Of a DNA stretch of 64,000 nt, positions 1,503-21,195 are shown in pieces. The stretch spans positions 1,178,001-1,242,000 of the forward strand of contig JAOSKN010000003.1 of NCBI GenBank assembly GCA_027493525.1, in the 5' to 3' direction. The translations under genes were made by a program, and so were the position numbers. Under the pieces are notes generated by a model. It did not search any database. It was not told where the DNA came from and saw nothing but the letters and a program-made list of their open reading frames with translations. The DNA is from Planctomycetota bacterium (GTDB lineage Bacteria > Planctomycetota > SZUA-567 > H5-PLA8). Each line of letters begins with the position of its first letter. Positions within the stretch are counted from its first letter, which is position 1.

Positions 1503-2381
1503 ATGCAATTCTTGCCGGACGCCACGCTGAAGGCCGCCGTGCACCGCGCCAAGCCCCGCTTGCGCCCCAGCGGCGTCTGGCTCACGCGCGTCTGCCATCC
1601 CACCTGGGTGCTGGATTACTGCGGGCTGGAAGGCGAGTCCTGCCGGATCGAACGAGAGGGCGCGGAAGGGCCGCCGTTTGCCTGGCGCCCCGGCACCTGG
1701 CACCTCTACGCGCCTCACACGCCCTATCGCCTGCGCATGGACCGCACGGACCTGCCCTCGCAGGACCTGTGGCTGCTCTTCGAATTGCGCCAGCCGCCGC
1801 TTGAACTGAAAGCCCGCGATTTCGCGGTGCTCGCCGACCCGGAGGATCAGCTCGGCGCGGACGTGCGCGCGATGGGGCTGCTGCAGGAACGCGGCCTGCC
1901 GGGGAGCGAGTGGACGCTGCACGGCTACCTGCTCTGCGTGCTGGGCCGGATTCTGACGGCGGCGCGCGCCGGGGCCGCCGGCACTCCGGAAGATCCTTGG
2001 CGCGTGCTGGCTCCGGATTCGCTCGAAGCCGACGCCCAGGGCCGGCTGCTGCATCAGGTGGACCGGCACGTGACGCGCGCGCTGAAATCCCCGCCCACGC
2101 TGGAGCAGCTCGCGGCGCTGCTCAACATGTCGGTCTCGTCGCTCGCGCACCGTTTCAAGGCCGAGACCGGCCTGACGGTCGTGCAGCGCATCCGCTGGCT
2201 GCGCGTCCGAGAGGCTCGCCGTCTGCTCGCGCAGCCTTCCGCGACGGTCAAATCGGTGGCGCGAAGCCTCGGCTTTCCCAACGCATTCTACTTCTCGCGC
2301 GTCTTCACCCAGGTGGCGGGCCTCTCGCCGACCCTTTACGCGCGGCGCTTCAAACAGGCGGCCGACCGGAGTATGGAATAG
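1503..2381 (+). CDS. AraC/XylS-family transcriptional regulator
   Basis: This 292-residue protein starts at ATG 1503 (MQFLPDATLK); the longer ORF from 66 is antisense read-through of the beta-helix gene. The N-terminal half (about 30-110) is a cupin-like ligand domain ('WRPGTWHLYAPHTPYRLR'). The C-terminal ~100 residues carry the two helix-turn-helix motifs of AraC proteins ('TLEQLAALLNMSVSSLAHRF' and 'TVKSVARSLGFPNAFYFSRV'). It is transcribed away from the beta-helix gene across a ~90-bp divergent AT-rich region and probably regulates it. The inducer is unknown. Confidence 0.88.
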   Translation: MQFLPDATLKAAVHRAKPRLRPSGVWLTRVCHPTWVLDYCGLEGESCRIEREGAEGPPFAWRPGTWHLYAPHTPYRLRMDRTDLPSQDLWLLFELRQPPLELKARDFAVLADPEDQLGADVRAMGLLQERGLPGSEWTLHGYLLCVLGRILTAARAGAAGTPEDPWRVLAPDSLEADAQGRLLHQVDRHVTRALKSPPTLEQLAALLNMSVSSLAHRFKAETGLTVVQRIRWLRVREARRLLAQPSATVKSVARSLGFPNAFYFSRVFTQVAGLSPTLYARRFKQAADRSME

Positions 2382-2411: not shown

Positions 2412-2581
2412 CTCAGTACCGCGCCGCGGAAGTAACTGGCCCAATGCGCCGGGCATTTTGTCCCGGATCGAGGCGCGCCGAGGGAGCATATCGGGACGAA
2501 GATCTGAGACCGAGACGCAACGAAGAGCCGGGGCAAAAGGCCCCAGCATTGGGTCAGGAACTTCCGCGGCGCGGTACTCAG
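2412..2581. repeat. 160-bp MITE-like inverted-repeat element, copy 1, with CTCAG target duplication
   Basis: The element is 2417-2576, flanked by CTCAG at 2412-2416 and 2577-2581. The ends TACCGCGCCGCGGAAGT and ACTTCCGCGGCGCGGTA are exact inverted repeats, and the arms continue inward to about 50 bp (CTGGCCCAATGC against GCATTGGGTCAG). A second 160-bp copy lies at 20965-21124 with its own CTAAG duplication. This copy sits exactly at the 3' end of the dioxygenase gene, whose TGA stop lies in the duplicated CTGAG. It encodes no transposase, so it would move in trans or be a fossil. Confidence 0.85.
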
Positions 2582-3414
2582 GGCTTCGGCCAGAGCATCG
2601 GGAACTGCGGGCCGCGCCACGACTCTCCAGGTTGCGGGTACTCCGCGCAGCGCTTCATCCACGTTTCGTTGGGGTGCCCGCGCGGATGCAGGCGATACGT
2701 GCAGGCGCTCGAGATCGCGTGCGAGACCAGGCCCTTGCGCCAGCGCGGGCTGTGGTTCATGCCGCTCCCGTGCAGGGTCTTGCCGTGATGAAAGCTCACC
2801 TCGCCGGCCTTCAGCAGCGCGGGGACCTCCCGCAGCCCCAGTTCCTCCGGCAGATCCGGCTTCTCCTCGTTATTCCCGCTGATGTGCCTGGGCAATTCGA
2901 AGAGGCCGAGCCGGTGGCTGCCGGCCATGAAAACCATCGGCCCCTGGTCGGCCGTCACGTCGTCGAGCGCGATCCAGCAGGTGACCGTCTCGCACTCGGC
3001 GACGACCTGCCAGTAGGCCCAGTCCTGGTGCCAGGTGACGACGTGCCCGCCGCCGGGCGGCTTGTAGGCGATCTGGTCGTGCCAGAGCCGGATACCCGGC
3101 GCGCCGAGCAACTGCGCGCAGATCCGCCCCAGCCGTTCGCTCGTGACGCAGGCCTCGATCGTGCGGTCGGCTTTCCACGCGTTGTCGAACTTGCGCACCG
3201 CCAGAGGGTGGCTCGCCTGCCGCCAGTAACTGCCGTCCGGCGGGGAGCCGGTCTCGTGCCGCCCGTCGATGACGCCCTCGCAGGCCGCGCGCAGGACCTC
3301 GAGTTCCGCGTCGTCGAAGAGCTTGCCGTGGACATGGAAGCCATCCTTCTTCCAGGCGGCGAGTTCTGCGGGGCTCAGTTCGGTCGAGGCGAGCGTCTCG
3401 GCGGCGGCGGGCAT
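2578..3414 (-). CDS. Phytanoyl-CoA dioxygenase (PhyH)-family Fe(II)/2-oxoglutarate oxygenase
   Basis: This 278-residue protein is the usual length for bacterial PhyH proteins. The iron-binding triad is visible: 'TWHQDWAYW' supplies H and D of HxD, and 'EVSFHHGKTLHGSG' supplies the distal His. 'NHSPRWRKG' supplies the Arg expected to bind 2-oxoglutarate. There is no signal peptide, so it is cytoplasmic. Family members hydroxylate a wide range of small molecules, so the substrate cannot be stated. It is divergent from the AraC gene at 3540, the probable regulator. The stop codon lies inside the target duplication of the 160-bp palindromic element, so the C-terminus is probably unchanged by that insertion. 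Confidence 0.9.
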   Translation of the reverse strand: MPAAAETLASTELSPAELAAWKKDGFHVHGKLFDDAELEVLRAACEGVIDGRHETGSPPDGSYWRQASHPLAVRKFDNAWKADRTIEACVTSERLGRICAQLLGAPGIRLWHDQIAYKPPGGGHVVTWHQDWAYWQVVAECETVTCWIALDDVTADQGPMVFMAGSHRLGLFELPRHISGNNEEKPDLPEELGLREVPALLKAGEVSFHHGKTLHGSGMNHSPRWRKGLVSHAISSACTYRLHPRGHPNETWMKRCAEYPQPGESWRGPQFPMLWPKP

Positions 3415-18531: not shown

Positions 18532-21195
18532 CTACGGCTGGGTCGCCCGTTGACGCTCCTTAACAAGCCATGCTTCGAGTGCGGCATGGACCTCCGGAGT
18601 TTGTACCACCACCAGTTTGCCCATGCTCAAGTGGAGCTGCGCGCCGGTCTCGATCATCCAAAACTCCGGGGCAACCTCCTTCTTGACGCGCGCCAGCAGT
18701 TCGTCGCTGAGGATTCGCAGGCCGTCCAAGTCGTACACGCGCACTTTCAGGGGCAGGCCATCGCAGCTCGACTTCAGCGCGACCCAGACGGCCTCGTCGC
18801 CAAGCACGTAATCCAAGGCCAGGGGCTTGAGCGCCTCGCGGAGCACCTCGCCGCCGGGCCGCTCCCGCGCCGCCAGCGCGATCCGGCGATCGTGCAGGTT
18901 CGCGCCGGCGCCGGGATCCAGCACGATGGGCGCGCCCAGGACTTTGCCGTACTCCTCGAAGGCTTGCGCGAGCGGCGCTTCGGCGACGTCAGGCGAGACC
19001 GGCAGGGCCAGCTTCTTGCGCAGCGCCTCGCGATCGAGGCAGGCCGGCGCCGCCGCGGCCTCGGGTCCGTCGCTCACCTCGTGGCTGCGGCCGGCGGCGG
19101 GGCGGCGCAGGGCCTCGAGCAGCCGGCCCAGCCGCGCGTGCCCTTCGGCCTCGGCCATCACGATCAGGTTGCCGTCGTGCTCCTGAAGCGACGTGGCAGG
19201 GTCCGCGAAGTCGCCATTCAATGGGCCTTCCACGATCCAGGTGGCGAGCATATAAACGTTCTTCAGATCGCGCGTGTAATGAATGCCCACCTCGAGGCCG
19301 GCGTGCGCGTCGCCGCGCTTGGTGAGGCAGACGCCCCCGTCGCGCAAGTCCACGGCCAATTGGGATATCCGCGCCAGCAGGTTCAGGACGCTCGCGGCCC
19401 GCAGGTTCTCCGCGCGCAGCGTGACCGCCAGTTGGCCGACGCCTTCGGTATGCCGGCGCGGATCGAGCCCGACGACGAGTCCGGTCTGCTCCGCCACCTC
19501 GTCCAGCGCCTCGCCGAGCGGCGTCTCCCTGAAATCCACGTGGATGCGCTTCTCGTCCAGCTTCGCGCGCAGTTCGTCCCGCCAGGCCCGGTCCGCGCCG
19601 CTGCCTATCCAGGGCGTCGGAACGCGCTTCGGATCGAGCGGGCGTTCCGGGCGCTTCCCCTCCGGCTCCACGGCGCGGACCCGCTTTTGCCAGGCTTCCA
19701 ACTCCCCCAGCAGGCGAACAATCCCCGCGTGGACCTCCGCCGACTGCATGACAACGAGCTTCCCTCCACGTTCCTGGATCGTCGTGCCTTGGTTGGGATC
19801 CCACGAATCGGGCCGCACCCGGTTGCGGATCAGGTCGGTGATCGAGGCCGTCGTCAGCGGCATGCCCGGGCCTTTCGTCAGGCGCTCCACCGAGTAGATG
19901 TGAAGCTCGATCGCCCAGGCGCAGACGTTCACCTGGTTGCTGATGAAGACCGCCTCGTCGATCAGGCTGTAATCCAGGTCGGCGCAGCGCAGGACCCACT
20001 CCAGCGCCGTGACCAGCGGCAACTCCTTCACGCGCAGGCTGATGATCGGTATCCCCCCTTCCAGAACGCCTGGATCTATCAGCAGCGGCGCGTCGGTGTG
20101 CCGGCGCAGCAAGGCGATGCACTCCGTAAGCGGGCGATTCTCGAACTCGAAACTGACTTTCGGTTCGGCGAGCTGCCGCTTTAAGCGCGACATCCAGGCC
20201 GGCGGTTCCTCTCGCAGGATCACGACCTGCTCGGCCGCCTGCTTCCGCCAGCATCCAAGGAAGCGCTCCACCTCCTCGTGGGACTGGGCCGGGCCGCGAA
20301 TCGCCAGCTTGCCCTCATGGGTCGCGACGGAAGCGGTGGGGTCGGCCGCCAGCAGCCGCTCCTCGAAAAGCTGGGCGACATCCGCCAGCGGCAGGCCCAG
20401 GTTCCCGGCCTCGTATAAGCGCGTCTCGTAGTGCCGAAGCTGGTAAGCCTGCTTCGTCAGCGCGATGCGCCGGGGCTCGATGCTCTGGACCAGTTGAGCG
20501 CATCGGCACAACCAGTTCAGCGCGTGCTCCCCGCTCATGGACTTGGCTTCCAAGTCGATGGGGATCTCGCGCGCGTCCTCGGATTCGGGCCCCAGCGCCA
20601 GCGGCAGGCCGACCTGGCGGGCGAGGTCCGCCAAGGCCTCTTCGAGGGGCGTCTCGCGGTAGTTCAGGGTGACCGGCTTCTCCAGCTTGGCGCGATAGTC
20701 GAGCAGGGCGAAGCGCACCGCGATGCGTTCGAGCCGCAGGGCGACCTCCTGGTCCTGCGTCGCGCGCCGCGCCTCCTCGAGCTGCGGCAGGACCCGAAGG
20801 CCCTGCGCCAGCAACTCCGCATGCGCCTTTTCGCGGGTCTCGTACCGGTCGCTGCCCAAGTCCTCGATCCGTTGCCGCACCTGTGCCGGGTCGAGGGGCG
20901 TCGGCGCTTCCCCTGAGTGCGCCGCGGCGGCCAGCGCCGTTAGGCCCAGGACACAGGCGCTAAGTACCGTGCCGTTGAAGTAACTGGCCCAATGCGCCGG
21001 GCATTTTGCCCCGGATCGAGGCGCGCCGAGGGAGCATATCGGGACGAAGATCTGTGACTGAGGCGCAACGAAGAGCCGGGGCCAAAGGCCCAAGCAGTGG
21101 GTCAGGAACTTCTGCGGCGCGGTACTAAGGAAGCATCGATTCGAGGGCACGGGCGCGCCTCCGCTCGCGGCGGCAAGGGGTCGTTCGATTCTCAT
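18532..21195 (-). CDS. Secreted STN/secretin-like repeat protein carrying an in-frame palindromic-element insertion
   Basis: I place the start at ATG 21195 (MRIERPLAAA), giving 887 residues; the ORF upstream is antisense to the creatininase gene. After the element comes 'LSACVLGLTALAAAAHSG', a signal peptide core, then a HEAT-like module ('IEDLGSDRYETREKAHAELL'). Three or four STN-like modules follow ('TLNYRETPLEEALADLARQV', 'VSFEFENRPLTECIALLRRH', 'HVDFRETPLGEALDEVAEQT'), each followed by a 'GKLVVMQSAEVHAGIVRLL' secretin N-domain-like strand. There is no C-terminal secretin barrel, so it is a periplasmic adaptor of unknown partner. Residues 24-78 are encoded by the 160-bp element plus its 5-bp duplication (55 codons, in frame). 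Confidence 0.75.
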   Translation of the reverse strand: MRIERPLAAASGGAPVPSNRCFLSTAPQKFLTHCLGLWPRLFVAPQSQIFVPICSLGAPRSGAKCPAHWASYFNGTVLSACVLGLTALAAAAHSGEAPTPLDPAQVRQRIEDLGSDRYETREKAHAELLAQGLRVLPQLEEARRATQDQEVALRLERIAVRFALLDYRAKLEKPVTLNYRETPLEEALADLARQVGLPLALGPESEDAREIPIDLEAKSMSGEHALNWLCRCAQLVQSIEPRRIALTKQAYQLRHYETRLYEAGNLGLPLADVAQLFEERLLAADPTASVATHEGKLAIRGPAQSHEEVERFLGCWRKQAAEQVVILREEPPAWMSRLKRQLAEPKVSFEFENRPLTECIALLRRHTDAPLLIDPGVLEGGIPIISLRVKELPLVTALEWVLRCADLDYSLIDEAVFISNQVNVCAWAIELHIYSVERLTKGPGMPLTTASITDLIRNRVRPDSWDPNQGTTIQERGGKLVVMQSAEVHAGIVRLLGELEAWQKRVRAVEPEGKRPERPLDPKRVPTPWIGSGADRAWRDELRAKLDEKRIHVDFRETPLGEALDEVAEQTGLVVGLDPRRHTEGVGQLAVTLRAENLRAASVLNLLARISQLAVDLRDGGVCLTKRGDAHAGLEVGIHYTRDLKNVYMLATWIVEGPLNGDFADPATSLQEHDGNLIVMAEAEGHARLGRLLEALRRPAAGRSHEVSDGPEAAAAPACLDREALRKKLALPVSPDVAEAPLAQAFEEYGKVLGAPIVLDPGAGANLHDRRIALAARERPGGEVLREALKPLALDYVLGDEAVWVALKSSCDGLPLKVRVYDLDGLRILSDELLARVKKEVAPEFWMIETGAQLHLSMGKLVVVQTPEVHAALEAWLVKERQRATQP
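20960..21129. repeat. 160-bp MITE-like element, copy 2, inserted in frame in a coding sequence, CTAAG target duplication
   Basis: The element is 20965-21124 with CTAAG at 20960-20964 and 21125-21129. Length is identical to copy 1, with about 90% identity by eye. Removing the element and one CTAAG joins 'VPSNRCFLS' directly to 'ACVLGLTALA' in the same frame, giving a normal signal peptide. The inserted 165 bp is an open frame on the minus strand, so the host gene stays open. Confidence 0.88.

Follow-up and report, generated by a model that had tools for sequence, protein, structure and literature searches.

Miniature inverted-repeat transposable elements (MITEs) are usually regarded as transposon ends placed around meaningless filler. 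The RUP elements of Streptococcus pneumoniae are MITEs for which mobilisation by IS630-Spn1 has been proposed (PMC2229807). IS630 elements themselves duplicate TA upon insertion, preferentially within CTAG (PMC2170065). The CIR repeats of Caulobacter and other alphaproteobacteria are about 110 bp long, and their RNA structure has been described as conserved between species (PMC2229807). The element described here occurs twice in a 64,000-nucleotide stretch of a Planctomycetota genome (contig JAOSKN010000003.1, positions 1,178,001–1,242,000; hereafter the window). It has the ends of an IS630-family transposon, and its interior is a conserved, folded and strand-specific module of ~86 nt, not a deleted transposase gene.

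A conserved structured core

The element and its core are laid out as follows, with positions counted in the window and the plus strand being the one on which the core reads.

2417..2576, plus strand: MITE copy 1, 160 bp
2455..2540, plus strand: structured core of copy 1, 86 nt, R2 score 87.7 bits
2456..2466, plus strand: basal stem P1, 5′ strand
2467..2475, plus strand: conserved 5′ loop motif RTCGAGGCG (C-RAG-G)
2518..2527, plus strand: conserved 3′ loop motif CAACGAAGAG
2528..2538, plus strand: basal stem P1, 3′ strand
20965..21124, plus strand: MITE copy 2, 160 bp, flanked by CTAAG at 20960–20964 and CTAAG at 21125–21129
21003..21088, plus strand: structured core of copy 2, R2 score 87.8 bits

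Within the window genome the least variable part of the element is CAACGAAGAGC, which varies by 1.3% compared with 5–8% in the arms. When the whole element is used as a query against relatives, only its middle matches in two genomes (G004 and G005), where it is set in quite different arms. Alignment of the cores from these genomes and the window brings out a common stem, TTTYG.../...CRAAA, and two common motifs, RTCGAGGCG and CAACGAAGAG. Of 392 sampled genomes from the phylum, 15 contain the core according to a covariance model, nearly always in several copies among the matches listed. Beyond the phylum, scanning GTDB genomes with a pattern recovers it in Verrucomicrobiota, Acidobacteriota, Myxococcota, Gamma- and Betaproteobacteria and Desulfobacterota. 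We count as true members those with both a covariance-model score and a hairpin, noting that E-values of our home-made models are rough. These belong to Planctomycetota, Verrucomicrobiota, Acidobacteriota, Kofleriaceae (Myxococcota), Lysobacterales, Sedimenticola, Chromatiaceae, Nitrosospira, Desulfobacteraceae and Desulfobacterales, the matches in Chromatiaceae, Nitrosospira and Desulfobacterales being weak. Among cultured carriers, Nitrosospira sp. Nl5 has two of the weaker copies (L171 and L177). True members sit in long hairpins with lineage-specific arms and TNA-, YTAR- or CTAG-type flanking sites. Pattern matches in Microvirga, Bradyrhizobium, Pseudomonas and other genomes have neither model score nor hairpin and are ascribed to chance.

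The core pattern has no exact match in a viral contig collection, and one core member has none in plasmids. No credible match exists in Rfam, where the only strong scores come from microRNA-precursor models that fit long hairpins. A description of the element, or of CTNAG with IS630, was not found in the open-licence literature; novelty is judged here against Rfam 15 and that literature only.

Some elements of ~300 bp carry two head-to-head cores joined by a linker like GCGCAACCCTTCGGGCAGCC (L166, L188, L157, L097, L081 and L147). These are predicted to form a three-way junction on a single long stem.

The case for a selected structure comes from an alignment of 51 sequences. In this alignment, 87.9% of cells pair, and the covariation score is 0.520, compared with 0.142 for shuffled sequences and no more than 0.122 after sliding the partners. 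In the basal stem P1 each of the 11 pairs varies on both sides, whereas the internal loop C-RAG-G / C-AAC-G is invariant, as is the C-G pair that closes it (51/51). The mismatches in P1 are strongly polarised: with one sequence per lineage, there are 21 G.U and no A.C oppositions (p=1e-6), and copies found by blastn, in which the RNA model is not involved, give 25:3 and 4:0. The arms are nearly symmetric (122:92). This difference indicates that the arms are selected mainly as DNA ends, but the core as a single strand whose polarity is fixed; this strand is most likely RNA. Across lineages, the P1 wobble pairs are nearly all of one orientation, with U in the 5′ strand and G in the 3′ strand.

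The main rival to an RNA is a role of the core at the DNA level, for example in single-stranded hairpins. The core would then be a binding site in an extruded or single-stranded hairpin, aiding transposition or shielding the palindrome from cleavage. Indeed, core-bearing elements are all long palindromes with DNA-transposon ends, and DNA too tolerates G.T better than A.C. However, arms and core behave differently (122:92 against 21:0 in P1), a double-stranded cruciform would not need selection on a single fixed strand, and core-less MITEs with the same ends exist. We therefore consider a DNA-level role unlikely, although it deserves to be kept in view.

A second alternative is that the element codes for a peptide. 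The earlier note had drawn attention to a 55-codon frame kept in both copies, and had named a ratio of nonsynonymous to synonymous substitution rates (dN/dS) near 1 as evidence against selection on it. Both window copies do keep this frame open, as that note had said. However, in 16 copies of equal length its dN/dS is 0.93, within the range of the other frames (0.71–0.94); of 26 copies, 9 have a stop inside it and 10 measure 161–162 bp. By the measure proposed for it the frame is refuted: there is no selection for a peptide, and we give a 55-residue product next to no chance. The same three observations rule out an element of the Rickettsia palindromic type, which has a conserved frame fused to genes. 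The earlier note was thus right about a mobile element with CTNAG duplications and an autonomous relative. What the element conserves, however, is not a peptide but a nucleic-acid core with a defined fold, which that note had not noticed.

Ends shared with two transposase families

The ends of copy 1 are arranged as follows.

2412..2416, no strand: left target duplication, CTCAG
2417..2447, plus strand: left terminal inverted repeat, beginning TACCGCGCCGCGGAAGT
2546..2576, minus strand: right terminal inverted repeat
2577..2581, no strand: right target duplication, CTCAG

The two inverted repeats match at 28 of 31 positions. The coordinates bear out the earlier description of copy 1 as lying between two CTCAG and copy 2 between two CTAAG, each copy measuring exactly 160 bp.

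A pattern search for matching ends in nine genomes of the same order identifies the autonomous relative that the earlier note had suggested looking for. It is a 1.25-kb insertion sequence (IS) in a genome of the same family (G003), with ends TACAGCGCCGCAGAAGT and CTTAG on each side (L233:1498-2748). Its transposase belongs to IS630 (NF033545, E=1e-52, 179.5 bits against a cut-off of 100; PF13358, DDE_3) and reads in two frames around TTTTCCCCC, possibly by programmed frameshifting. Because its ends match those of this IS, the window element can be classified, on the basis of sequence, as an IS630-type MITE. It is 160 bp long, has no transposase or coding frame, and carries inverted repeats, target duplications and ends shared with an IS. 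Two properties depart from the expected type: (i) the interior does not derive from the parental IS, which lacks the core, although most MITE definitions do not require this, and (ii) the duplication is not the canonical 2-bp TA of IS630 but includes the variable N, the G003 IS itself lying between two CTTAG.

Candidate partners within the window genome did not hold up. An IS4-like IS (DDE_Tnp_1) of 1472 bp, present there in four copies that are 99% identical (L073-L076), has different ends, GTGGCACNCAATACTGTTCGGC, and is unrelated; for IS1182, no matching transposase was found there.

IS1182-like elements are nevertheless the partners of the core elsewhere. In four genomes (G354, G250, G004 and the acidobacterium G400), core-bearing MITEs have arms equal to the ends of an IS1182-like IS that resides in the same genome; a YTAR duplication is seen wherever both ends are preserved. 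The transposases of these ISs form a group related to IS1182 that, at 178 bits, falls short of the 270-bit IS1182 cut-off. In an acidobacterial genome an IS1182-like IS is multicopy (L206-L212), with ends CAGCCCGTGGCAAAAGTC and 4-bp TTAA/TTAG duplications where the ends are complete. Genome G005 holds two MITE families (L061 and L069) with unrelated arms and inner cores that are 81% identical, which shows that ends have been exchanged around a common core.

These observations bear on the usual origin of most bacterial MITEs, internal deletion of an IS. Under this explanation the core would be a leftover of the ancestral IS, conserved through recent common descent. The ends do belong to ISs, but the core is absent from every autonomous IS examined, that is, from the IS630 and IS1182-like ISs with matching ends. 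Moreover, recent descent does not yield a core with compensatory changes that spans unrelated transposase families and several phyla. Origin by simple deletion is highly improbable.

We conclude that the conserved structured module is probably the cargo of non-autonomous elements belonging to at least two unrelated transposase families, and its role may be pictured as follows. The IS630-family ends insert at CTNAG and duplicate TNA or the whole 5 bp, with transposases present in the cell presumably serving the MITE ends in trans. The core may then work as RNA, following read-through transcription from adjacent genes, and could bind a putative, widely conserved host factor through its C-RAG-G / C-AAC-G internal loop. 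Binding of such a factor might make insertions tolerable or help the element spread, perhaps explaining how the core persists through changes of ends.

Several points weigh against an RNA cargo of this kind. Some MITEs in G003 have the ends of the window element but no core, which means that transposition does not strictly depend on it. No intact IS630 bearing these ends is seen in the window genome, whose two IS630 remnants have other ends. Fitting the larger alignments to the model tilts them somewhat toward structure, and the G.U excess could also stem from single-stranded DNA. Finally, the core strand is sense to the entering gene in ~14 cases and antisense in 9 (hand count); there is no consistent sense orientation, and thus no sign that the core has a role in 3′ untranslated regions.

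Target sites, stop codons and neighbouring genes

Whole-genome blastn finds ~40 copies or fragments in the host planctomycete genome. The CTNAG target with direct duplications, read in the earlier note from the two window copies, extends to the genome: identical CTNAG stands at both flanks in 23 of the 26 copies with two intact ends. The N is unrestricted and roughly even (G 8, A 7, T 6, C 5). Since it is the same on both sides, the duplication covers N, and is therefore TNA at the least and CTNAG at the most. Genome G000 is 88% complete, and many of the host records are metagenome bins.

Seven of the 26 copies coincide exactly with a gene's stop codon, compared with 18 of 337 surrounding CTNAG sites (p=8e-4); against non-coding CTNAG sites only, the excess is 7/19 versus 18/114 (p=0.05). 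Coding insertions are depleted, with 7/26 copies against 223/337 sites. These counts rest on a simple codon-usage gene caller and on empty sites reconstructed by joining the flanks; the caller is crude, and an over-long frame made copy 2 count as coding. TNA can only be TAA, TGA, TTA or TCA, and thus holds a stop codon on one strand in every case. Insertion at stop codons follows from this property of the target and from the duplication, which restores the stop. The pattern is likely to reflect target specificity plus the loss of harmful insertions. A target of this kind offers a simple route to insertion at gene ends with the protein unharmed.

Copy 1 illustrates this arrangement, with the following neighbours.

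2578..3414 (coding part 2581–3414), minus strand: PhyH-domain gene (PF05721, E=3.6e-34)
1503..2381, plus strand: AraC-type regulator gene, convergent toward the element

The TGA stop of the PhyH gene occupies 2578–2580, inside the right CTCAG. The duplication retains this stop and the insertion leaves the protein unchanged, as the earlier note had recognised. The AraC-type gene ends a few dozen bases from copy 1, and a creatininase gene lies near copy 2.

The position of copies between genes might suggest that the element is retained because it serves the host, either by terminating transcription or as an mRNA-stabilising 3′ hairpin. The fold is very stable (z=-10.5), and the placement of 7/26 copies exactly on stop codons, with coding insertions depleted, would suit such a function. 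However, any long palindrome would suffice for it, which leaves the conserved loops unexplained, and a hand count gives no orientation bias relative to genes. In addition, a genome of the same genus lacks the element at the sites orthologous to two copies, where flank divergence prevents a base-exact comparison; the insertions are thus not ancient features held in common. Retention for the host appears very unlikely, and we continue to favour a structured module carried as cargo.

Core-less derivatives of 25–92 bp keep the ends of the window element and have lost its middle.

L051:2126-2150 and L042:2763-2787: 25 bp each
L043:2834-2863 and L046:2693-2722: 30 bp each
L048:2466-2535: 70 bp
L050:2497-2588: 92 bp

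They are probably palindrome deletions that followed insertion. The flanks at L024 and L011 show the MITE nested in another palindromic repeat of the same genome, CGTTTTAGGAYGCACT...AGTGCRTCCYAAAACG. A second dispersed repeat, AGCGGTCTTNC..AGTTTCTTGC, adjoins several copies or broken ends (L011, L029, L041, L042 and L053).

Comparison with known systems

In the elements described here it is the supposed filler that is conserved, while the ends can be exchanged, and this holds across several phyla and for transposase families that are unrelated. Should the core prove to function as RNA, it would be the founding example of an RNA family disseminated by transposition, and a binding partner of wide conservation should be traceable through its conserved loop.

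RUP elements resemble the window element in being about 100–160 bp long, in lacking a transposase and in sharing their ends with an IS630-family IS (PMC2229807). They differ in inserting at TA and in having no other reported functional motif (PMC2229807), whereas the window element uses CTNAG and carries a structured core. With the IS630 family (e.g. ISY100), the element shares its partner transposase and a target that resembles CTAG plus one base. The canonical duplication of that family is TA only (PMC2170065), but the window element duplicates TNA or CTNAG, and an IS630-type IS with such a duplication extends the known behaviour of the family. MITEs of the IS1182 family are comparable in that the core-bearing MITEs of four other genomes match IS1182-like ends and show the YTAR duplication. 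They are set apart by transposase scores of 178 bits against the cut-off of 270, and the window element itself does not have IS1182-like ends.

CIR repeats are likewise short repeats with a conserved RNA structure (PMC2229807), but they are alphaproteobacterial, carry GANTC in the loop, have no link to IS ends and differ in sequence and fold. REPINs and the REP-RAYT system offer another parallel, as short palindromic elements, sometimes with two inverted modules like those at L166, L188 and L157. The window elements differ from them in having DDE-type ends and direct target duplications, and membership of the REPIN or REP class is for this reason unlikely; no link between RAYT and the elements was seen, although no search for RAYT was made.

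A more distant comparison is with the short interspersed nuclear elements (SINEs). We suggest, tentatively and with somewhat less than even confidence, that the core is an ancient mobile RNA module without a name in Rfam, independent of any single transposon, which retains its fold and invariant loop but swaps ends across phyla and draws on unrelated transposases (IS630, IS1182-like and probably more). It would then be a bacterial counterpart of SINEs, combining a conserved RNA head for a host factor with borrowed mobility.
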